Shown piece by piece: positions 43,582 through 58,101 of a stretch of 64,000 nt of DNA. The notes beneath the pieces are model-generated. The model saw only the letters and a program-made list of their open reading frames with translations. It made no database searches and was not told the origin of the DNA. Positions within the stretch are counted from its first letter, which is position 1. Each line of letters begins with the position of its first letter. The stretch comes from Firmicutes bacterium ADurb.Bin193. GTDB lineage: Bacteria; Bacillota; Clostridia; Monoglobales; Firm-18. The stretch spans positions 62,001-126,000 of the forward strand of contig MWCQ01000001.1 in assembly GCA_002070105.1 (NCBI GenBank), given 5' to 3'. Position numbers and translations under genes: made by a program.

Positions 43582-44760
43582 TTATTCAAATCTCAAAGCA
43601 TCAATCGGGTCAAGCTTTGATGCCTTGTTTGCGGGGTACCAGCCGAAAAATACTCCTATGGTGATAGAGAAGCCTGCGGACAAAATCATTACCCCCGCGG
43701 TCGCCACAGCCTCCAAATTGATTGCCCGTCCCACTAGATAGGTGCCGACAATTCCAAGCAGTATACCTATTATTCCTCCCAGACAGCTTACAACTATCGA
43801 TTCTATTAAAAACTGGGTCATTATGCTCCTTCTTCTTGCCCCTATCGCTTTTCTTATTCCTATTTCGCGGGTACGCTCGGTTACGGAAACAAGCATGATA
43901 TTCATTATGCCTATACCGCCGACCAAAAGCGAAATACCCGCAATTCCGCCGAGCATCAGGGACATCGTTTCCGTCATTGTCTCGACATTTTCAAGCATTT
44001 CCGCCTGATTCATAACCCGATATGCGTTTTCGTTTCGCAAAAGCTTTAACAAAAGCTCCTCAAGCTTATCCGTCGCCTTCTCCGAAACCTCAGCGCTTAC
44101 GGCCTGAAATGAATATGTCCGTATTATTGCGTTTCTAAGCAGCCTCTGAGCCGTTGTGTAAGGAATTATTATCCTGTCGTCCTGCGACCCCTGAGCTATC
44201 GTAGATGTTTTTGCCTCCAAAACACCCACAACGGTAAAGACCTGATTTGACACCTTAAGTATCTGCCCTATGGGGTCTTCGCCGGGGAAATAGTGGTTTT
44301 GAATATACTTCCCTATGACGACAACCTTTCTCCTCGTAATACAATCCTGTTCCGAAATAAACCTTCCAAACTCTACCGTTGCATTGTGTATTGACGAATA
44401 ATGCTGATTTGAGCCTATAAGATTTGTGGATTCGTTAACGGTACCCACCTTAATTCTGGGATTTCCGGTTATGGTCGGCGCAACGCATATAAAATAATCG
44501 GGGTTGTCGGCGACAAGTTTTTGCATATCGTTAATATCAAGATTTCTCGTCGAGTTTCGACCGGTTAAGGTTACGCTTATCATATTTGTTCCCATGTTCT
44601 CCATTTGCGCTTTAATTCTTGCCGTTGTCGCCTGAACGATGCTTACCATTATAATTACCGCCGCAACACCTATAATAATTCCGAGCATTGTAAGAAACGA
44701 GCGCATTTTATTGCTTGTTACGCTTTGAATTGCCATTTTTACGGCCTGAGATATATTCAT
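43582..44760 (-). CDS. MacB-type ABC transporter permease
   Basis: 392 residues. An N-terminal helix (about 18-42), a large extracytoplasmic MacB_PCD domain (about 45-240), then three helices (about 275-300, 325-350 and 360-380) of the FtsX fold, with [20 protein letters not shown] and RKAIGARR between them. The subunit pairs with the ATPase whose end it overlaps by 4 nt. Together with the adaptor gene upstream it forms a MacAB-like exporter; substrate unknown (peptides or antibiotics are usual). Confidence 0.92.
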
Positions 44761-45440
44761 GCGTACTTCACCTCGCAGTCGGAGAAAATTTTGCCGTCAT
44801 GAATACTTATCATTCTCTTGGCATTTTTGGCAATCTCCTTGTCATGCGTGATTAAAACCACGGTATTGCCCTCCTGATGGATTTCCCGCAGCATCTGCAT
44901 AATTTCCTCACCCGTCTTGCTGTCGAGAGCACCCGTCGGTTCGTCCGCAAGGATAAGCGAGGGCTTGTTAACAAGGGCCCGCGCAATCGCAACACGCTGT
45001 TGCTGACCGCCCGAAAGCTGATTCGGACGGTGATGCTCTCTGCCCTCAAGCCCCACCTTCTTTAATGCTTCTTTTGCAAGATGTCGTCTTTCATTTTTGG
45101 CAAGTCCGGCATATATCAGCGGAAGCTCGACATTTTCAAGCACGGTAAGCCTTCCGAGAAGATTATAGCTTTGGAATATAAACCCGACTTTTCTGTTTCG
45201 TATCTCGGCAAGCTGGTCGTCACGCATCTGGCTGACCTCGGTACCGTCTATGTAATACTTACCTTCCGTCGGTGTATCAAGACAGCCTATCATATTCATA
45301 AGAGTTGATTTTCCGCTCCCCGAAGGTCCCACAATGGACACAAACTCATTTGCGCCTATATGCAGGCTGACACCGTCGAGAGCGCGGACCTCATTATCTC
45401 CCATGTTGTATATCTTATACATGTTTTCTATCCTGATCAT
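44757..45440 (-). CDS. MacB/LolD-type ABC transporter ATP-binding protein
   Basis: 227 residues. Walker [10 protein letters not shown] near 40, signature [15 protein letters not shown], Walker [13 protein letters not shown] and the switch His in VLITHD. The ATPase half of the exporter. It overlaps the permease as ATGA and follows the adaptor by 18 nt. Confidence 0.95.
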
Positions 45441-45458
45441 TATATTCTCCTATCCGTA

Positions 45459-47522
45459 TCATCGGCGATTATTCTGACCGCCGAAATTGCCGCCCCCACC
45501 CTGTGTTCTGATAACCGGGGCGCCTCCCATTCCCTGCATTCTGAAATTCTGATTGTTATTTCTTGATCCGGAAGACGGAGTTGACGGAATAAATATCTCG
45601 TCGCCCTCTTTAAGTCCCCGTTTAATCTCAATATTGTCGGTATTCGAAAGACCTATCTGAACCCTTATGCGTTTGTAGCCCTCCGGCAAATCTGAGTTTA
45701 CCATGTTTGTGCCGCCACGGCTTTGCGTGTTGCCGCTGTTTTGAGGCGTAACAGATTGTGCGGGTGCGCCTTCGTTGGTTTGAGGCGTTGCGGTCGGTGC
45801 GGGTGTATTTCCGCCGCCCTGTGAGTCGCCGCCGGTTCGCCTCTGGTTATTCTCGCTGCCTTGTGCATTGCTTGGACGATTTGCTCTCTGACCGCTTTCG
45901 CCGCTCTGCGCAAAGCTTGGGCGATTTACTCTCTGACCGCTTTCGCCGCGCTGTGAATCACCGCCAGGTCGTCTCTGGCTGTTTTCGCCGCCCTGCGCAT
46001 TGCTTGGGCTATTTCCTCTTTGACCGCTTTCGCCGCGCTGTGAATCACCGCCAGGTCGTCTCTGTTCCGGTCCCGATAAATCTTCCTCAACATAATCCGA
46101 CCTTACGATTACATAGCCATAGCCGTTTCTGATGCCCGTAACTGCCGACACAGGTACGACAAGAGTGTCCTTTGACTCCTCAACAATAATTTCGGCGTTG
46201 ACATTCATTCCCGATATAAGATTCCCCGGATCGGAGATGGTAAGTTCAACCTCATATGTCGTAACGCCGTTTTGCGATGTTCCCTCATTCGCAACCTTGG
46301 TAACCTGTCCGACGAATTTCTCATTCGGAAGGGCATCTGCGGTAATATCGGCAAGAAGTCCTACCTTAACCTTTGATATTTCAAGCTCATCTACATCAAG
46401 GTTGAATACCATTTTCGAGGTATCCGCAATCGTCATAAGATTCGAATCCCTGTCGCCCGCGCTGTTTCCTATCGTATCTCCCGCCTTTGCTTTTTTCGAT
46501 AATACAATGCCGTCAATGGGGGAGGTAATGTTGTATTTCTCAAGCTCCTTACTTGATGATTCAAGCGAAAGCTTTGCGTCTTGCAATTCGAGAATTGCCT
46601 TTCGGTAACTCTCGGTATAATCCGTGCCGTCAATCTCAAAAAGCAGATCGCCCTTGTTTACATACTGGTTGTTCTTTACATAGACCTTGATGACCTTTCC
46701 CGAAACCTTCGGTATTACAGGGGTTGAATCGCCGTTTTCAACGGTTCCCGAAACAGGCGATTTCACATCACCCTGCGAGGTATGTACGGTTGCGCCCACG
46801 CTTGTTCCGGGCGCAAGAGAACCGGGGTTTTGAACCGATATTTCAACCTTATAAAGCGAGCTTCCGTCCTGCGAGCCTGACGGAGTATTTGATTTATATG
46901 TAACCTTCCCCTTCATTGTTGTCATATAAAGCGCGCTTGTTACTGTTACTGGGTCGCCCTCATTTATTTTGGAAATTTGCCCCGCATTGAAAGGTATGGT
47001 TGCAACCATATTTGTTTTATCTATTATGGTGGCTATTCTGTCCGCCCTGACGCTTTCATCAACCTTAACATTAAAATCGGTAAGCACGCCGCTTGCGGGC
47101 GCCTTAACTTTAAGATTTGCAATATTTTCTTTAATTGTATTGACATTAAGCTGGGCCTTTTCGACATTGTTATGCTGTTTTTGAATACTGTTGCTCGCAT
47201 CGGTGGAATCAATCCTGTAAAGGACATCGCCTTGTCTTACGGTATCTCCTTCGTTAAAATTAGATTCGATTATTTCACCTTTAACCAAAGCGACAATGTC
47301 AAACCTCGCCACAGGCTCAACGGTTCCCGAACCGCTTATCGTAACGGCAAGGTCATCCCTTCTGACAATCGAAGGAGTAAAGGTTGCCGATGCGACTTTG
47401 CTGTCTTTGCCAAACCCGAAAAACGCATACGCACCGACCGAAAGAGCCAATACAATTACAGCCGAAATAACTATTTTCTTTTTCCTGCTCATCTTTTTAA
47501 GCCTTAACATCATTTTTTTCAT
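45459..47522 (-). CDS. MacA-like membrane-fusion/adaptor protein with duplicated adaptor core
   Basis: 687 residues. N-terminal membrane helix (about 16-36). Two consecutive lipoyl/HlyD-type units: one near 60-250 (VKGEIIESNFNEGDTVRQGDVL, then KVKAPASGVLTDF) and one near 265-470 (VSGKVIKVYVKNNQYVNKGDLL, then ITSPIDGIVLSKKA). A ~130-residue low-complexity linker follows (Gln, Arg, Gly, Ser and Asn, repeated RRPGGDSQRGESGQR), then a final membrane-proximal beta domain and a Gly/Asn-rich tail. ATG at 47522 has GAGGT upstream; the frame opens at 47573. First gene of the macA-macB set. Confidence 0.88.
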   Translation of the reverse strand: MKKMMLRLKKMSRKKKIVISAVIVLALSVGAYAFFGFGKDSKVASATFTPSIVRRDDLAVTISGSGTVEPVARFDIVALVKGEIIESNFNEGDTVRQGDVLYRIDSTDASNSIQKQHNNVEKAQLNVNTIKENIANLKVKAPASGVLTDFNVKVDESVRADRIATIIDKTNMVATIPFNAGQISKINEGDPVTVTSALYMTTMKGKVTYKSNTPSGSQDGSSLYKVEISVQNPGSLAPGTSVGATVHTSQGDVKSPVSGTVENGDSTPVIPKVSGKVIKVYVKNNQYVNKGDLLFEIDGTDYTESYRKAILELQDAKLSLESSSKELEKYNITSPIDGIVLSKKAKAGDTIGNSAGDRDSNLMTIADTSKMVFNLDVDELEISKVKVGLLADITADALPNEKFVGQVTKVANEGTSQNGVTTYEVELTISDPGNLISGMNVNAEIIVEESKDTLVVPVSAVTGIRNGYGYVIVRSDYVEEDLSGPEQRRPGGDSQRGESGQRGNSPSNAQGGENSQRRPGGDSQRGESGQRVNRPSFAQSGESGQRANRPSNAQGSENNQRRTGGDSQGGGNTPAPTATPQTNEGAPAQSVTPQNSGNTQSRGGTNMVNSDLPEGYKRIRVQIGLSNTDNIEIKRGLKEGDEIFIPSTPSSGSRNNNQNFRMQGMGGAPVIRTQGGGGNFGGQNNRR
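45830..46075 (-). repeat. in-gene tandem repeat in the MacA-like linker
   Basis: Units of about 45 and 42 nt recur; the block TGACCGCTTTCGCCGCGCTG occurs at 45934 and 46021 (87 nt apart) with a close variant at 45889. All lengths are multiples of three, so copy number can vary without frameshift. Confidence 0.8.
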
Positions 47523-47725
47523 GCTTCTACCTCGCTTTGCTTTGTTTTTATGATTAATACAATTATGAAACAAATCAAACTATTCCCATTTTACGCTGTA
47601 TATAACATTATACAATTATATTAGCAAATAAATATGAACAATATGTGAATTTAGAATAATATTATGAAGAAAATGTGATTTTTGCATTTTGCGAATTTTG
47701 CATTTAGGTATAAGTTATTTATGCC

Positions 47726-47754
47726 TTGAAAGATTAGGCGTTTTTTGCTATAAT
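47726..47754 (+). promoter_or_regulatory. sigma-A-type promoter of the DacF-like gene
   Basis: TTGAAA (47726-47731), 17-nt spacer, TATAAT (47749-47754), 39 nt before the ATG. Confidence 0.75.
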
Positions 47755-47792
47755 AATAGTAAATACCAATATTTTCGACAGGGGATGCGGGT

Positions 47793-49100
47793 ATGTATAA
47801 AAGGGTTATTATCTGTATTGCAATATTATTTGTTTCAGCATTTTTCGCTTTGCCCGTCTTAGCGGATTCGCCCGACATTAAAGCCTCATCGGCTATCCTC
47901 GCCGCGGCGGACGGTGAGCAGATTATTTTTGACAAAAACCCGGATGAAAAAGTTTATCCCTCAGGTCTTACAAAACTTATGACCGCGCTTGTCGCCTATG
48001 AAACCTGCGGAACCGAAGAGATTATTACAGTTCCGGAGAATATAAAAGATTTTATAACGCCCTATGAGCCGTCGCTCGACCTGAAGCCCGGCGAGCATAT
48101 AAAGTCCGGCGACCTTATAAACGCAATTATCGCAAGCGCTCCCAACGATGCGGCAATTACCCTTGCGATCCACTGCGGCGGGAGTATCGAAGGCTTTGTT
48201 AGTATGATGAACGAGCGGTGCGAAACGCTGGGTCTTACCCAAACCCGTTTTGTAAATCCCACGGGTATCCATAACGAACATCAGTACACAACGGCAAGGG
48301 ATTTGCTTAAACTTTACAAAGCTTTATGCGCCGTTCCGCTTATTAGAAAGGCTGTCGAAAGCACCAATATAAAAATAAGTGCAACGGACAAAAGCAGTGC
48401 GCGCACGCTGTGGACAAGCAACAGCCTGATTTCGAAATATTACAACACAAACTACATATACCCCTATGCGAAGGGAGGCAAGGCGTCGGCTTCAACCGCA
48501 GGCGGATACTCCGTAATTTCCCATGCCTCGAAGGGAAACGGAAAGCTTATATGTATTGTTTTAAACAGCATACTCGATGAAAATGTTAATTATTCCTTTT
48601 TGGATTCGGCAAACCTTTTCGAATACGGCTTTAACAGCTTTGATTCAAAGGAAATAGTCCGTCAGGGCTCAATCATGCGTGAGGTAAGAATCAAAAACGC
48701 CATGGGAACCGACCGTATTCTTCTTATAGCGGGGAACACGCTTAAATGCTTTATACAAAAAGGTGACTCGACAGAAAGCGTAACTCTTTCAAAGAAAATT
48801 CCCGAATATATTTTTGCGCCTGTCGAAAAGGGCGATGTTATCGGTACAATGGAGTACTCCTACCTCGGCAGGAATGTTGGGACGGTTTTGATGACCGCAG
48901 GCGACACCGTTAAGGTTAACCCGATAAAATATGTCGGTAACAGCATTTTATGGTTTTTGAACCTGCCTTCTGTAAAGGCTGTTTTAATTATACTGTTTTT
49001 GGCGGTGGCTGTTTATGCCGGTATAGTAATAGCCATCATAAGAAAGGCAAGCAAAACCAAAAGACGCAGACCGAAAAAGCAAAAAAGCGACAGTCTCTAA
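47793..49100 (+). CDS. D-alanyl-D-alanine carboxypeptidase-like protein with degenerate active site
   Basis: 435 residues. Signal peptide about 1-25, peptidase S11 domain about 28-280, a C-terminal beta domain, a membrane helix near 397-418 and a basic tail. The overall fold and many conserved blocks match DacF/PBP5 (RFVNPTGIH, TTARDLLKLYKAL). The usual SxxK reads Y-P-S-G-L-T-K: the nucleophile position (58) is Gly, with Ser one residue early. SxN reads SAPND with a Pro inserted, and KTG reads KGG (227-229). All three motifs deviate, so activity is doubtful. GGGGA ribosome site; its stop overlaps the end of the convergent DUF624-like gene. Confidence 0.85.
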   Translation: MYKRVIICIAILFVSAFFALPVLADSPDIKASSAILAAADGEQIIFDKNPDEKVYPSGLTKLMTALVAYETCGTEEIITVPENIKDFITPYEPSLDLKPGEHIKSGDLINAIIASAPNDAAITLAIHCGGSIEGFVSMMNERCETLGLTQTRFVNPTGIHNEHQYTTARDLLKLYKALCAVPLIRKAVESTNIKISATDKSSARTLWTSNSLISKYYNTNYIYPYAKGGKASASTAGGYSVISHASKGNGKLICIVLNSILDENVNYSFLDSANLFEYGFNSFDSKEIVRQGSIMREVRIKNAMGTDRILLIAGNTLKCFIQKGDSTESVTLSKKIPEYIFAPVEKGDVIGTMEYSYLGRNVGTVLMTAGDTVKVNPIKYVGNSILWFLNLPSVKAVLIILFLAVAVYAGIVIAIIRKASKTKRRRPKKQKSDSL

Positions 49101-51488: not shown

Positions 51489-53657
51489 ATGTCTAAATCG
51501 GTTAAATTATTTATAAAAATATTTGTCGGGACAACGCTTATCGGCATAATTATAGGTATGGGAATACTTGCGGGTGCGCTTTTAGGCTTTATTGACACCA
51601 CCTCGGACCTGAATATAGACGAGCTTTCGCTGAATGCAACCTCCTTTATTTACTATACCGACTCCAAAACGGGCGAGCCAAAAGAATATGAACGCCTGTA
51701 CGGTGAGGAAAACCGCGTGTGGTGCGACATTACCGATACCCCCGAATATTTCCGTCAGGCGTTTATCGCGATTGAGGACGAGCGGTTTTATAAACACTCG
51801 GGCTTTGATATAAAAAGCACCTCAAAGGCTGTTTTCGATTATGTCCTGAGGCGAAACGGGCGCGGTGCGAGCACCATAACCCAACAACTTGTAAAAAATC
51901 TTACGGGCGACAAGGATATTACTCCGACCCGTAAGATTCAGGAGATTGTCCGCGCGATAAATCTTGAAAAAAAGCTTTCAAAGGAACAGATTCTTGAGCT
52001 TTACATGAACACGATTTATTTAAGTCAGGGCTGTTACGGCGTGGGAAGCGCGGCGGATTTTTATTTTGAAAAGGATGTGTCCGAGCTTACCCTTGCGGAG
52101 TGCGCCGCAATTGCGGGGATTACGCAGTACCCCTCAAAATATGACCCTATTATAAATCCGAAAAACAACAAGGAAAAGCAGGAGCTGATTTTAGGCAAAA
52201 TGCTTGAGCTCGGATATATAGACAAACAAACATACGAAAGCGCCGTGGCGGAGCCTCTTGTTTTTGTGGGAAAAACAAGGGAGGTTGCAAGCCGACAGTC
52301 ATATTTTGCGGATCAGGTAATAAGCGATGTGCTCCGCGATTTGCAGAATATAAAGGGCTATTCCGAAGCGGTTGCCGCAAAAATGCTCTATACGGGCGGG
52401 CTTCGGATTTATTCAACGGTTGACCCCGTTGTTCAGGGGATTATCGACAAGGTTTACGCCGACCCGAAAAGCTTTCAGACGCCGCCCAAGGGTATTAATC
52501 CCGAATCGGCGATGGTAGTTTTAGACCCTGTTACGGGCGGAATAAAAGGCATAGCGGGGGGCAAGGGCGAAAAAACGGCAAACAGAACCTTAAACCGCGC
52601 AACGCAATCATACAGACAGCCCGGCTCGGCAATTAAGCCCGTGGCGGTATATGCCCCCGCAATCGAAAACAACCTTATAACACCAGCAACTGTTTTTGAG
52701 GACAAAAGCCTAACCTTCGGCTCATGGTCGCCGAAAAATTATTACAGCGGCTTCAAAGGACCCGTAACAATGTCATACGCCATTGAACAATCAATAAACA
52801 CAATTCCCGTTCAGATTATGGAAAGAATGAGTCCCTCCGTATCCGTCAGCTTTATGACCAACAACTTGGGGATTACAACCCTAAGCTCAAATGATTTAAA
52901 CCTTGCCATTGCTTTGGGCGGTGTAACAAAAGGAATTTCGCCGCTTGAGCTTACGGCGGCTTACGCACCCTTTGCAAACCGCGGTATTTATACAAAGCCT
53001 ATGAGCTATACAAAGGTTTTGGACGACAAGGGCAAGGTAATTCTTGAAAACAAGAAGGTCAGCAAAAAGGCAATGTCGGAACAGACCGCAACCATTATGG
53101 CATATATGTTAAAAGGCGCGGTCGACTTCGGAACGGGCGCATCCGCCAAATTTAACCCCGCCTACTCAACCGCGGGAAAGACAGGGACAACGGACAACGA
53201 TGTCGACAGGTGGTTTGTCGGCTTTACTCCCTACTATGTTGCGGGAGTGTGGGTTGGGTGTGACAATCCCCGCTCAATGAGCTTTTTCAGCGGAAATCCG
53301 TGTATCCCCGTCTGGAAAAGGGTTATGCAGGAGGTCCACAGCGCAAAAGGCCTTCCCTCAAAGGGATTCGGGGTAAGCTCCGGCGTTGTTGAAGCCACAT
53401 TCTGCACCTTCGGAGGAGGTATTCCGAATGATTTGTGTCCCTCGGTGAAAACTGCCTACTTCAAGTCTGGGAGCGAGCCTACCGAAATATGCACACTTCA
53501 TGTTCCTGAGGAGAATACCGAAGAAAACCCTGCCGAGGGTGAGGAAGGCGTTGAAGACACCGAACCTAATGCCCCGAGCGCAGCCCCCTCTTCCTCTCCT
53601 CCCGCAAATACACCCGCACCGTCAACACCCGTGGATTTGGGAGAACCCAATGTATAA
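51489..53657 (+). CDS. class A penicillin-binding protein (transglycosylase/transpeptidase)
   Basis: 722 residues. Membrane helix about 9-33; GT51 domain about 80-250 with AIEDERFYKHSGFD (catalytic Glu) and GRGASTITQQLVKNL; transpeptidase domain with SxxK in QPGSAIKPVAVY, SxN in EQSINTIPVQ and KTG in STAGKTGTTDN. A Pro/Ser/Ala-rich tail ends the protein. It polymerises and cross-links peptidoglycan at the outer face of the membrane. The frame runs open further upstream, but the ATG at 51489, with GGGAG in front of the membrane helix, is the start. Confidence 0.95.
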   Translation: MSKSVKLFIKIFVGTTLIGIIIGMGILAGALLGFIDTTSDLNIDELSLNATSFIYYTDSKTGEPKEYERLYGEENRVWCDITDTPEYFRQAFIAIEDERFYKHSGFDIKSTSKAVFDYVLRRNGRGASTITQQLVKNLTGDKDITPTRKIQEIVRAINLEKKLSKEQILELYMNTIYLSQGCYGVGSAADFYFEKDVSELTLAECAAIAGITQYPSKYDPIINPKNNKEKQELILGKMLELGYIDKQTYESAVAEPLVFVGKTREVASRQSYFADQVISDVLRDLQNIKGYSEAVAAKMLYTGGLRIYSTVDPVVQGIIDKVYADPKSFQTPPKGINPESAMVVLDPVTGGIKGIAGGKGEKTANRTLNRATQSYRQPGSAIKPVAVYAPAIENNLITPATVFEDKSLTFGSWSPKNYYSGFKGPVTMSYAIEQSINTIPVQIMERMSPSVSVSFMTNNLGITTLSSNDLNLAIALGGVTKGISPLELTAAYAPFANRGIYTKPMSYTKVLDDKGKVILENKKVSKKAMSEQTATIMAYMLKGAVDFGTGASAKFNPAYSTAGKTGTTDNDVDRWFVGFTPYYVAGVWVGCDNPRSMSFFSGNPCIPVWKRVMQEVHSAKGLPSKGFGVSSGVVEATFCTFGGGIPNDLCPSVKTAYFKSGSEPTEICTLHVPEENTEENPAEGEEGVEDTEPNAPSAAPSSSPPANTPAPSTPVDLGEPNV

Positions 53658-53763
53658 ACATAGTATAAGCATAATCAACATATAGCCCATACTCTTTCAC
53701 CTTCGTATTTTTCGTTGCATATTATGTTAATGCAAAGATATACGGAGAGGATTGATACTAACA

Positions 53764-55017
53764 ATGGGTAAAATGATAATAGAGGGCGGCAAGCGGCTTG
53801 AGGGACTTGTAAGAATCCACGGCTCGAAAAACGCGGTCCTACCAATTCTTGCGGCAACGGTGCTGAACGGCGGAAAGAATGTCATCAGCGACTGCCCTAA
53901 ACTTAAGGACGTGTATTCATCAATAGAAATTCTCAAAGGTTTGGGATGTGGCGTAAAATGGGAAGGCAGCACCGTAATAGTAGATTCAAGCAGCGTTTCG
54001 ACTCACTACATACCCGAAGCCTTAATGAGAGAAATGCGTTCGTCGATTATTTTTTTGGGGGCTATTATTGCAAGGTGCAGAAAAGCAACAATTTCGATGC
54101 CCGGCGGGTGCGAGCTCGGTCCGCGCCCCATTGACCTTCACCTGAAGGCATTTCGTCAGCTTGGAATATCCGTTGATGAGTCGCACGGATACATAAGCTG
54201 TAATGTCGATAAGATTAACTGTGACGACATTCATCTTAGCTTTCCCAGTGTCGGTGCGACGGAAAATATTATGCTTGTGGCAACGCTTGCAAAGGGTACG
54301 ACAACAATAATAAACGCAGCGAAGGAGCCTGAAATCGTTGATCTTCAGGACTATCTCAACGCAGCGGGCGCAAAAATAAGCGGAGCGGGCAGTGCCGTTA
54401 TCACAATCCGAGGTGTTGAGAATCTTCACGATGTCAAACACACGGTTATTTCCGACAGGATTGTTGCCGCATCCTATCTTTCCGCGGCGGCCATAACCGG
54501 CGGAACGATAACGGTTACAAATGCTATCCCCTCGCATATCCAGCCGATTACCTCCGTTTTGAAGGACTGCGGCTGTGACATAGCCTGCAAGGACGATACC
54601 ATTACGATTGAGGCACCGCCCAGACCCCGACCGATTGATTTTATAAGGACCCTTCCTCACCCCGGCTTTCCTACCGATGCTCAGGCGCCTATCATGTCGG
54701 TTCTTTCGGTGGCGACAGGAACAAGCATTATTGCGGAGAATATGTTTGAAAACCGATTCAAGCATGTTGCCGAGCTTAACAGAATGGGCGCCGATATAAA
54801 GGTGGACGGGCGGCTTGCGGTTATTCGCGGCGTTACACGCCTTTCGGGTGCAAAAATAGCCGCTACGGACCTTCGCGGTGCGGCTGCGCTTGTCATAGCG
54901 GGGCTTAATGCGGATGGTGTTACACAGGTTGACGGTCTTAATCACCTCGACAGAGGGTATGAGTCCTTCGATGAAGGTCTTGCCATGCTTGGCGCAAATA
55001 TAAAAAGGATGGGTTAG
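53764..55017 (+). CDS. murA: UDP-N-acetylglucosamine 1-carboxyvinyltransferase
   Basis: About 417 residues. EPSP-synthase-like fold with the start MIIEGGKRLEGLVRIHGSKN and active-site Cys116 in MPGGCELGPRPIDLH, the residue alkylated by fosfomycin. First committed step of peptidoglycan synthesis. The start is uncertain: the TTG at 53752 is very close to GGAGAGGA, while the ATG at 53764 is rather far (about 14 nt) but fits the family start. First gene of murA-divIB-DUF881-sbp. Confidence 0.95.
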   Translation: MGKMIIEGGKRLEGLVRIHGSKNAVLPILAATVLNGGKNVISDCPKLKDVYSSIEILKGLGCGVKWEGSTVIVDSSSVSTHYIPEALMREMRSSIIFLGAIIARCRKATISMPGGCELGPRPIDLHLKAFRQLGISVDESHGYISCNVDKINCDDIHLSFPSVGATENIMLVATLAKGTTTIINAAKEPEIVDLQDYLNAAGAKISGAGSAVITIRGVENLHDVKHTVISDRIVAASYLSAAAITGGTITVTNAIPSHIQPITSVLKDCGCDIACKDDTITIEAPPRPRPIDFIRTLPHPGFPTDAQAPIMSVLSVATGTSIIAENMFENRFKHVAELNRMGADIKVDGRLAVIRGVTRLSGAKIAATDLRGAAALVIAGLNADGVTQVDGLNHLDRGYESFDEGLAMLGANIKRMG

Positions 55018-55020
55018 CAA

Positions 55021-55815
55021 ATGGACTACATAAGCAAAACTACCTATGACGGAAGGAATGTCAGGGTTAAGGATTACAAAAAAAGAATACGGCGCAACCG
55101 CAGGAGAAGAAAAATTCTGTTTTTCTCCTTTGTTTTGCTGTGCGTAATTATGTTTTTTCGTTTAACCCCCTTTTTTAACATCAAACACATAACCTGTACA
55201 GGAAACATTAAGGTATCGGTCGAAGAAATCATATCGGTTTCCACAATAGGCTATAATTACAATCTGTTTAAAACGAGCATAAGTAAAGCGGAAAAGCTTA
55301 TAAAAACAATTCCGTATGTCAGCGATGTAAAGGTTAAACGGAAATTCCCCAACAAAATCGAAATTAATGTCACCGAATCGGAAATATGCGGTTATATTCC
55401 TCTTTCGGGCGGCTATATATATATTGATAAAAACTGCAAGATGCTTGAATATCGCGATACTCCTCCCGAACAAATCGTTCCCGTAGTTGAAAATACAGGT
55501 GTCTTAACCTTTGAAAGCGGGAGACAGCTTGTTGCGGACGATGAGGACAAGGTTAAGTCGCTAACCGCGGTATTTAACGCTTTGATATCCAACTCGGTTT
55601 TGGAAAAAACAGCGGTGATTGATGTTTTATCTGTAGGCAGGATTAAGTTTTTATACAATAACAGCCTTGAAATCATTGTCGGCGACATAAAGGATATCGA
55701 TTATAAGATAAGCTTTGCTTTAAGGGCGATTAAGGAGCGTATCGGCGAAAACACAAGGGGAACCCTGGATGTAAGCGACCCTAAAACAGGAACGATATTA
55801 AGCGAAAGAAATTAA
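55021..55815 (+). CDS. divIB: cell division protein DivIB/FtsQ
   Basis: 264 residues. A basic cytoplasmic start (KKRIRRNRRRRK), one membrane helix (about 35-55), a POTRA domain (about 58-128, FNIKHITCTGNIKVSVEEI) and a beta domain with AVIDVLSVGRIKFLY. Part of the divisome with FtsL and FtsB homologues. It starts 3 nt after murA. Confidence 0.92.
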   Translation: MDYISKTTYDGRNVRVKDYKKRIRRNRRRRKILFFSFVLLCVIMFFRLTPFFNIKHITCTGNIKVSVEEIISVSTIGYNYNLFKTSISKAEKLIKTIPYVSDVKVKRKFPNKIEINVTESEICGYIPLSGGYIYIDKNCKMLEYRDTPPEQIVPVVENTGVLTFESGRQLVADDEDKVKSLTAVFNALISNSVLEKTAVIDVLSVGRIKFLYNNSLEIIVGDIKDIDYKISFALRAIKERIGENTRGTLDVSDPKTGTILSERN

Positions 55816-55837
55816 TTAAAGAAGGGATAAATGCCTT

Positions 55838-56581
55838 ATGAAAATGACACATGCTCAAATTGCGATCGGCTCTATATGTCTTATTATGGCATTCGCGATT
55901 ACCCTGCAAATAAGAAGCGTAAGCCACAACCGCCTTGTCAACAACTCCGAGATGGCGCGCGCCGCCGACCTTCAACAGCAACTTCGGCTCGAACGGACGA
56001 AAAACGATGACCTTCAAAAGCAGGTTTTGCAGTATAAGGACGAGCTTAACGAGTTCAAAGCAGAGGCGGCAAACAGCAGTGACTATGCTAAATTCCTGAC
56101 TAAACAGCTTGAACGCGCCGAGCTTCTTGCCGGACTTACTCCCGTTGAGGGAAGCGGTTTAATTGTTACGCTTCGGGACAGCAAGTCGCCTGGGGCAATA
56201 AATGCGGACCCTAATTTGTATGTGGTTCACGACACGGACATACTCTGGCTTATAAACGAGCTTCGTGACGCGGGCGCGGAGGCAATCCAGCTTAACGGAG
56301 AAAGGGTTGTGTCTACCTCGGAAATACGCTGTGCGGGCTCAACCGTCAGCATCAACAACAACAGATACTCCGCCCCCTTTGAAATTGTTGCGATAGGCGA
56401 CTCCGCCAACATGGAAAACGCTCTTTTAATGCGTGACGGGGTTTATGACACGCTTCGCGGATACGGCATCGAAATTACCATCAAAAAATCAAGCAAGGTT
56501 TCCGTAAACGCGTACAACGGAACAATTATCTTCAAGCATGCTACCCCTGTTTTGGCAGAGCAAAAGGAGGCTTCACAATGA
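55838..56581 (+). CDS. DUF881 family protein (YlxW/YlxX-like)
   Basis: 247 residues. N-terminal membrane helix (about 5-25), a coiled coil (about 35-80, LQQQLRLERTKNDDLQKQVL), then the DUF881 domain with GLTPVEGSGLIVTLRDS and LINELRDAGAEAIQLNGERV. Always found near division genes in Bacillota; function not established. It overlaps sbp by 4 nt. Confidence 0.9.
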   Translation: MKMTHAQIAIGSICLIMAFAITLQIRSVSHNRLVNNSEMARAADLQQQLRLERTKNDDLQKQVLQYKDELNEFKAEAANSSDYAKFLTKQLERAELLAGLTPVEGSGLIVTLRDSKSPGAINADPNLYVVHDTDILWLINELRDAGAEAIQLNGERVVSTSEIRCAGSTVSINNNRYSAPFEIVAIGDSANMENALLMRDGVYDTLRGYGIEITIKKSSKVSVNAYNGTIIFKHATPVLAEQKEASQ

Positions 56582-56937
56582 TTATTATTATAACGGCGCT
56601 TGTTATCGGAATTGCTTTGGGTCTGCTTATGCCGTCCGGGATTCCCGCAAATATGACCCCTTATATCGCCATTGCGATACTGGCAGGGCTCGATTCTGTT
56701 TTCGGCGGGTTTGCGGCGACGATAAACAACAATTTCAAAATGAAGGTGTTTTTAACCGGATTTTTCGGAAACGCGCTTTTGGCAATGGCGCTCACCTTTA
56801 TCGGAAAGCTTCTTGATGTTGACATTTACCTTGCCGCAATCATAGTATTCGGTACAAGACTGTTTCAGAATTTTGCCGTTATCCGTCGGTTTTTGTTGAA
56901 TAGGCACACTAATGATTTTGTACAAAAAAAATCTTGA
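56578..56937 (+). CDS. sbp: small basic protein Sbp (DUF1290)
   Basis: 119 residues with about three membrane helices and the family pattern IALGLLMPSGIPANMTPYIAIAILAGLDSVFGG. Conserved in the dcw region of Bacillota; role unknown. It starts as ATGA overlap with the DUF881 gene. Confidence 0.9.
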   Translation: MIIIITALVIGIALGLLMPSGIPANMTPYIAIAILAGLDSVFGGFAATINNNFKMKVFLTGFFGNALLAMALTFIGKLLDVDIYLAAIIVFGTRLFQNFAVIRRFLLNRHTNDFVQKKS

Positions 56938-56955
56938 TATTTTTTCATTATTTCC

Positions 56956-56984
56956 TTTACAAACAGGAGAAAGTTTTATATAAT
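56956..56984 (+). promoter_or_regulatory. sigma-A promoter of ftsZ
   Basis: TTTACA (56956-56961), 17-nt spacer, TATAAT (56979-56984), about 50 nt before the start. Gives ftsZ its own transcription. Confidence 0.75.
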
Positions 56985-57039
56985 GTAATAATAATGAAAG
57001 ATTAAATATTTTTACTTTTTACATAAGGAGGACATGTCC

Positions 57040-58101
57040 GTGATAGAATTTGAAACAGAACACGAGCAGGTTGCCAGAATTAAAGTGGTCGGTGTCGGCG
57101 GCGGCGGAAATAACGCTGTCAACAGGATGATTGAAGCGGGTCTTAAATCAATTGATTTTATTGCTATAAACACGGACAAGCAGGCTTTGAAAGGATCAAA
57201 CGCGCAAAGCATTATTCAGATAGGCGAAAAATTAACGCGCGGTCTCGGCGCGGGGGCAGACCCCGAAATCGGCAAAAAGGCCGCCGAAGAAAGCCGTGAG
57301 GACATTGCTCAGTCGCTTAGTGGCGCCGATATGGTTTTTGTAACCGCGGGAATGGGCGGCGGAACCGGCACGGGTGCGGCTCCGATTGTTGCAAGCGTCG
57401 CAAGGGAGCTTGGCATACTTACGGTTGCAATCGTTACAAAGCCTTTTACCTTTGAGGGCAGAAAGCGTATGGTTCAGGCCGAAAACGGTATATGTGAGCT
57501 TAAGGAAATGACGGACGCGCTTGTGGTTATACCCAACGACAAGCTTTTGGAAGAGGATTTGGGCATAATGGATGCATTCAGGCGCGCCGACGATGTTTTA
57601 AAGCACGGCGTTCAGGGTATATCCGAGCTTATAGTTGTTCCGGGGCTTATCAATCTTGATTTTGCCGATGTAAAGAGGGTTATGAAAAATACAGGCTACG
57701 CACACATGGGCGTCGGGCGCGCCTCCGGCAAAAACAGGGCCGAGGAAGCTACCCGAATGGCTATCAACAGTCCGCTTCTCGAAACCTCGATTGCGGGCGC
57801 AAAGGGTATTTTGCTCAATGTTTCGGGCGGCGCTACAATGGGTATGCTTGAAATCGGCAGGGCGAATGAGATTGTCCAGGAGCTTGCCGACATTGATGCG
57901 GAATTTATCTTCGGCGCTTCGATAAAAGAATCAATGGGCGACGAAATAGAGGTTACCGTTGTTGCGACAGGCTTCGAAAACGAAAACTCCTCCTATCGGC
58001 CGATTTTGGCGGCGGTCGGAGAAACCGCAGGCGCGGAAAAACGAAGTATGCCCGATGTTTTTGAAGACGATTTGGATGTACCGCCGTTTTTAAGAAAGTA
58101 G
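57040..58101 (+). CDS. ftsZ: cell division GTPase FtsZ
   Basis: 353 residues. Tubulin fold with [20 protein letters not shown], the signature [12 protein letters not shown] and a C-terminal peptide [11 protein letters not shown], which recruits partners such as SepF. GGAGG at 57027-57031 is only 2 nt from the ATG at 57034 but 8 nt from the in-frame GTG at 57040, so GTG is the likelier start. Polymerises to the Z ring. No ftsA lies upstream; sbp comes directly before. No spoIIGA-sigE follows. Confidence 0.96.

Follow-up and report, generated by a model that had tools for sequence, protein, structure and literature searches.

The gene at positions 47793–49100 (+ strand) of the window, the whole 64,000-nucleotide stretch of the Firmicutes bacterium ADurb.Bin193 genome that we analysed, encodes a 435-aa DacF/PBP5-like protein that appears to be a pseudo-DD-carboxypeptidase. 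S11 enzymes require the serine of their SxxK motif for acylation by substrate or penicillin, and DD-carboxypeptidases are textbook penicillin targets. We observed loss of the catalytic motifs, fixation of this loss in the family of the window's genome (f1) and its sister family (f5), purifying selection that extends to the dead site, a predicted fold that is intact, and active S11 paralogues in the same genomes. Our reading as a whole, to which we give a probability of about 0.65, is that the protein is a pseudoenzyme retained as a membrane-anchored regulator that binds peptidoglycan or a partner. Taken separately, the pseudoenzyme part is very likely and the inferred adaptor part reasonably probable.

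An anchored DacF/PBP5-type protein with three altered motifs

The gene looks monocistronic in the window. Upstream lie a predicted sigma-70-type promoter (TTGAAA-17-TATAAT with an extended -10, 47726–47754; 11 of 12 consensus matches, by consensus match only) and a ribosome-binding site (AGGGGA, 47780–47785) 7 nt 5′ of the ATG, both on the + strand. The product begins with a predicted signal peptide (residues 1–24, 47793–47864; helix 2–17 in the model), followed by a Peptidase_S11 domain (PF00768, residues 24–259, 47862–48569; 135.9 bits, cut-off 27.6), a PBP5_C domain (PF07943, residues 283–374, 48639–48914; 31.3 bits, cut-off 21.2), and a C-terminal membrane helix (residues ~392–415) with a basic cytoplasmic tail (48966–49097; KASKTKRRRPKKQK). 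An AlphaFold model of the protein, built from a 41-row alignment, had a mean pLDDT of 93.5 and a pTM of 0.82, with a predicted C-terminal helix at residues 392–424 carrying the basic tail. Foldseek matched the model best to PBP6 of E. coli and to other PBP5s (probability 1.00), with TM-scores against solved PBP5 and PBP6 of ~0.8–0.88, normalised to the solved chains. Together, the profile scores, the model and the Foldseek matches point to a predicted fold of the membrane-anchored DacF/PBP5 type. Judged from the sequence, the profiles and the model, an earlier note on this DNA was right about the coordinates and frame, the S11 homology and C-terminal anchor, and the promoter and ribosome site.

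The protein resembles the DacF/DacA/PBP5–PBP6 DD-carboxypeptidases (S11, PF00768 plus PF07943) in fold, domain order, export and membrane anchoring. Unlike PBP5 and PBP6, it has a true C-terminal membrane helix with a basic tail, a feature also found in active clostridial orthologues, and it has lost the nucleophilic Ser and the KTG motif and carries an altered SxN motif. We registered the motifs by ungapped alignment with the B. subtilis and E. coli enzymes and 90 canonical relatives. SxxK, which supplies the nucleophilic Ser and the general-base Lys, aligns with G58-L59-T60-K61 (47964–47975). SxN aligns with A116-P-N118 (48138–48146), with A116 in place of Ser, the Asn kept as N118, and S115 lying one column before the motif. 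KTG aligns with K230-A231-S232 (48480–48488), K230 being the conserved Lys. These alignments bear out the claim of the earlier note that all three motifs are altered, and its reading of SxxK as GLTK (G58–K61). Two other readings were mis-registered: SxN contains no inserted Pro (SAPND), since the motif aligns without a gap, and the KGG that was assigned to KTG is the preceding K227-G228-G229. With no nucleophile and a rebuilt KTG strand, this exported, C-terminally anchored homologue would have neither serine DD-carboxypeptidase action nor the usual penicillin acylation.

Motif loss is shared across family f1 and its sister family

The genomes compared are mostly metagenome-assembled, and the survey of the class is biased towards query-like sequences. 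Family f1 was sampled in 8 genomes of 6 genera, giving 7 full-length copies (38–54% identity to the window's product); the eighth genome, G007, has only a C-terminal fragment at a contig edge. The catalytic Ser and KTG are absent from all seven full-length copies, which cover the six genera. Position 58 is G, G, G, G, N, G and G, and the KTG column reads KAS (window), KAA, KSS, KAA, KAS, KIS and KIS. The SxN column is APN in the window, N-x-N in L005 and S-x-N in the other five, and the SxxK Lys is Met in L007. All seven copies have T60, N118, K230 and S234; position 57 is S, L, S, A, F, S and S, and position 115 is S, G, G, G, G, A and A. In the two copies from f5 (L072 and L079), Ser is also gone (PGALVH and PGALTQ), with H/Q at position 61, D for N118 and R/K at position 234. 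The Ser-less copies of f1 and f5 form one clade, with a support of 98 in the larger tree and of 100/97 in the mixture-model tree described below.

By contrast, active DacF orthologues from the same order or class (e.g. L011, L024, L210, L214), which are co-linear with the window's protein over their full length including the anchor, keep SxxK, SxN and KTG. All 24 of the f4/f6 orthologues compared, from the same order, have canonical motifs and are full-length and anchor-bearing. Similarly, the other S11 genes of f1 genomes are all canonical among those read, and the window's genome carries two canonical S11 paralogues. On these alignments, the loss in f1 is more than chance, being shared by six orthologues while the f4/f6 orthologues compared, like the paralogues read, are canonical. 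The earlier note had proposed aligning S11 relatives and collecting orthologues, and had asked whether these keep the three motifs: the losses recur in the six same-family orthologues, whereas orthologues outside the clade are intact.

The catalytically dead protein is under purifying selection

For the closest Ser-less pair, L009 and L010, we obtained a dN of 0.035 and a dS of 0.741, a ratio of 0.047; the active paralogue in the same two genomes (L046/L040) gave 0.051/1.037, a ratio of 0.049. By region, dN/dS for L009/L010 was 0.041 in the S11 core, against 0–0.016 in the three former motif segments, which are short and hold few substitutions. Synonymous sites are saturated in more distant f1 pairs, making their ratios unusable. 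Between genera, identity in the S11 core is 49–61% for the pseudo-copies versus 67–79% for two active paralogues, suggesting that the core of the pseudo-copies evolves faster than that of the active paralogues, yet under clear constraint. New residues that are fixed in f1 but rare in canonical relatives include A37, G41, P50, Y69, L172, Y175, W207, S234 and S240. A ratio close to 0.05, like that of the active paralogue, together with strongly constrained dead-site segments, argues against decay. The loss is thus fixed in the clade, the protein is under purifying selection, and active paralogues exist elsewhere in the genome, as expected of a pseudoenzyme kept by selection; the earlier suggestion of a pseudo-enzyme that is not simply decaying is strongly supported by the clade-wide recurrence and by these ratios.

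The serine was probably lost at least four times in the class

A quick tree of 128 proteins, built without the motif columns, required 7 changes. A mixture-model tree of 58 rows, from which the long-branch rows had been left out, required 4 changes, all forced by well-supported branches, with a 5–95% bootstrap range of 4–4. We claim only four losses because the 7 in the larger tree include long-branch rows of unsure place (L083, L093, L095–L098). Ser is also lost in f16 (L131 and L135, G..N), in family f56 (L128, L132 and L147; A..N, E..E and A..N) and in L094. On these trees, Ser was lost in at least three more lineages of the class besides f1 and f5, and hence at least four times in all; a single origin of all Ser-less S11 proteins was rejected. 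Change counts alone give no direction, and loss rather than gain is the sensible reading because the surrounding and outgroup rows carry canonical motifs. A divergent ComEA-like neighbour is common to pseudo-copies of f5 and f16 and to active copies of f16 and f26, so orthology is supported by synteny.

Further Ser-less DacF-like proteins occur in Oscillospiraceae and other Clostridia (L093, L094 and L095–L098); L095–L098 have lost the SxxK Ser and Lys and the SxN Asn and keep KTG. Genome G057 carries a Ser-less copy cut by a contig end (L083; PGDLVK, KNG) together with an active anchored copy (L082), possibly reflecting duplication followed by loss.

Pseudo-copies lie in wall and division neighbourhoods

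In the window, wall and division genes (51501–58101, + strand) begin 2.4 kb past the pseudo-dac gene and encode, by our reading of the neighbourhood, a class A PBP (pbp1A, about 51501–53657), a MurA-type EPSP synthase family protein (53752–55017), an FtsQ-type POTRA protein (55021–55815) and FtsZ (57034–58101). On the other side are divergent genes for a MacB permease, an ATPase and a HlyD/MacA-like exporter protein (43582–47573, − strand). The HlyD-ATPase-MacB exporter is kept beside pseudo-dac in L052, and the HlyD gene in L051. The C-terminal part of the window's HlyD/MacA-like protein (45459–46100) contains Arg/Gly/Gln-rich repeats of the RRPGGDSQRGESGQR type.

Elsewhere in f1, pseudo-dac of G005 is co-oriented with mraZ-rsmH-ftsL-pbpB-murE and lies directly 5′ of this cluster, in which murE was identified solely from the start of its sequence. 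In the genus g3, the pseudo-dac stop overlaps the cdaA start by 4 nt, with cdaR following (L055, 9339–12417; L056, 7095–10176); the genes come in the same order in L065, at the edge of a contig. The overlap may mean that pseudo-dac is translationally coupled to c-di-AMP synthesis. The f5 copy L203 has an Amidase_3 gene next downstream. We found no single conserved neighbour among the f1 neighbourhoods compared, and the neighbours differ between genera, so that no single partner is indicated for the family. The neighbourhoods of the pseudo-copies are wall and division neighbourhoods, an association that may owe something to chance. SpoIVA is present in most genomes tested, making sporulation possible in these organisms.

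In f56, the degenerate gene is the last of an operon, PucR-ftsE-ftsX-M23/PcsB-(ctpA)-DAC, in all nine genomes whose flank reaches ftsEX (L206, 159–6565; L207, 8714–15201; L208, 3536–9971; L209, L213 and L223–L226). In two more genomes only ctpA is visible, at contig edges, and ctpA is absent from L209 and L213, whose branch diverges first in f56. Among the f56 copies read, the SxN Asn is lost in all, and the Ser and Lys are lost too in three. The M23 neighbour has intact HxxxD/HxH metal motifs in four of five cases, the fifth being unmatched by the pattern used. The f56 gene sits in an ftsEX operon, as expected of a regulator of FtsEX-linked hydrolases (EnvC/PcsB pathway). The window's genome differs in this respect: we found no linkage of its pseudo-dac to ftsEX, and its ftsX lies on another contig (C12).

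Discussion

Selection keeps the pseudoenzyme throughout f1, and what it keeps is the folded domain outside the membrane and its anchor. We propose that the protein serves on the outer face of the membrane as an adaptor without catalysis, with a presumably remodelled cleft that would bind a protein partner, peptidoglycan stems or both, and that it would thereby tune how the wall is hydrolysed or synthesised close to sites of division or sporulation. A binding role may be the most economical one, by analogy with the degenerate LytM proteins EnvC and DipM. The suggestion in the earlier note of peptidoglycan binding, or of a role in regulating other enzymes, is plausible, with genomic context now in its favour. 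Testable leads to partners come from FtsEX/M23/CtpA in f56 and, in g3, from CdaA/CdaR. Given that N118, K230, T60 and mostly K61 remain in f1, the protein may still bind substrate to some extent or have a weak, unorthodox activity.

A different partner, namely membrane signalling rather than wall hydrolases or synthases, would make the protein a stem-peptide sensor that reports the state of the wall, for example to CdaA/CdaR (c-di-AMP) or to the divergent MacAB-type ABC system. The cdaA overlap in g3 is consistent with such a sensor, as are the divergent HlyD-ATPase-MacB exporter in G000 and G003 and the HlyD gene in G004; however, neither arrangement is common to the whole family, and cdaA lies ~37 kb from the gene in the window's genome, so we consider this explanation unlikely. 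It is far less probable still that the protein remains an enzyme by another mechanism or another nucleophile (a shifted Ser57 or Ser115, Thr60 or Ser234). The invariance of T60, N118, K230 and S234 in f1 would fit this explanation, but T60 is just as conserved in active relatives, the SxxK Lys is replaced in L007, and f5 differs at positions 61, 118 and 234. The shifted serine that the earlier note had entertained was rejected, since columns 57 and 115 are variable and the Lys is not kept throughout.

The protein might instead be a decoy that holds beta-lactams or D-Ala-D-Ala ligands non-covalently, making use of the retained fold and the retained parts of the binding strand; we regard this as very improbable, as the glycine and threonine of KTG are replaced in all f1 copies and no drug-resistance context was seen in the neighbourhoods read. 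The missing catalytic residues could in principle reflect a decaying pseudogene or a sequencing error, but full-length frames in seven genomes of six genera, a dN/dS of ~0.05 and strong conservation of the dead-site segments refute this at the level of the clade and leave it a negligible probability.

The adaptor that we favour has its closest functional parallel in EnvC, NlpD and DipM, which are described as degenerate LytM/M23 proteins that have lost catalysis and regulate wall hydrolases (PMC10336132, PMC5533458, PMC7668044). As a works-like comparison, the proteins share a peptidoglycan peptidase fold without catalysis and, in f56, linkage to FtsEX. By contrast, the S11 fold is unrelated to that of LytM, and the regulatory role of the S11 pseudoenzyme is putative. 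We rejected Rv2911 of Mycobacterium tuberculosis, labelled an 'evolved' PBP homologue in the PDB, as a precedent: it belongs to S11 and, like the window's protein, has adaptations around the site that are specific to its clade, but keeps its motifs (STIK, SGN and KTGY) and binds PMSF covalently at its serine, and 'evolved' refers to laboratory optimisation (PMC4281109). We found no description of an S11/PBP pseudoenzyme, or of an inactive, selected branch of DD-carboxypeptidases, in the open-access literature searched, which is weak evidence as most subscription journals lie outside it; inactive LytM relatives are known regulators.

More tentatively, membrane-anchored DacF proteins of Clostridia may repeatedly have become pseudoenzyme adaptors between peptidoglycan and wall-control machines, the S11 counterpart of the degenerate LytM activators. 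Those machines might be FtsEX, the M23 hydrolase and CtpA in f56, and the products of division or c-di-AMP genes in f1. Annotating genes by S11 similarity gives too high a count of DD-carboxypeptidases and beta-lactam targets in Clostridia. Retention of a PBP5-type fold without its chemistry on at least four separate occasions implies a structural or sensing role, for the study of which ftsE-ftsX-M23-ctpA-dac offers a concrete operon, and which the active enzymes may have too.
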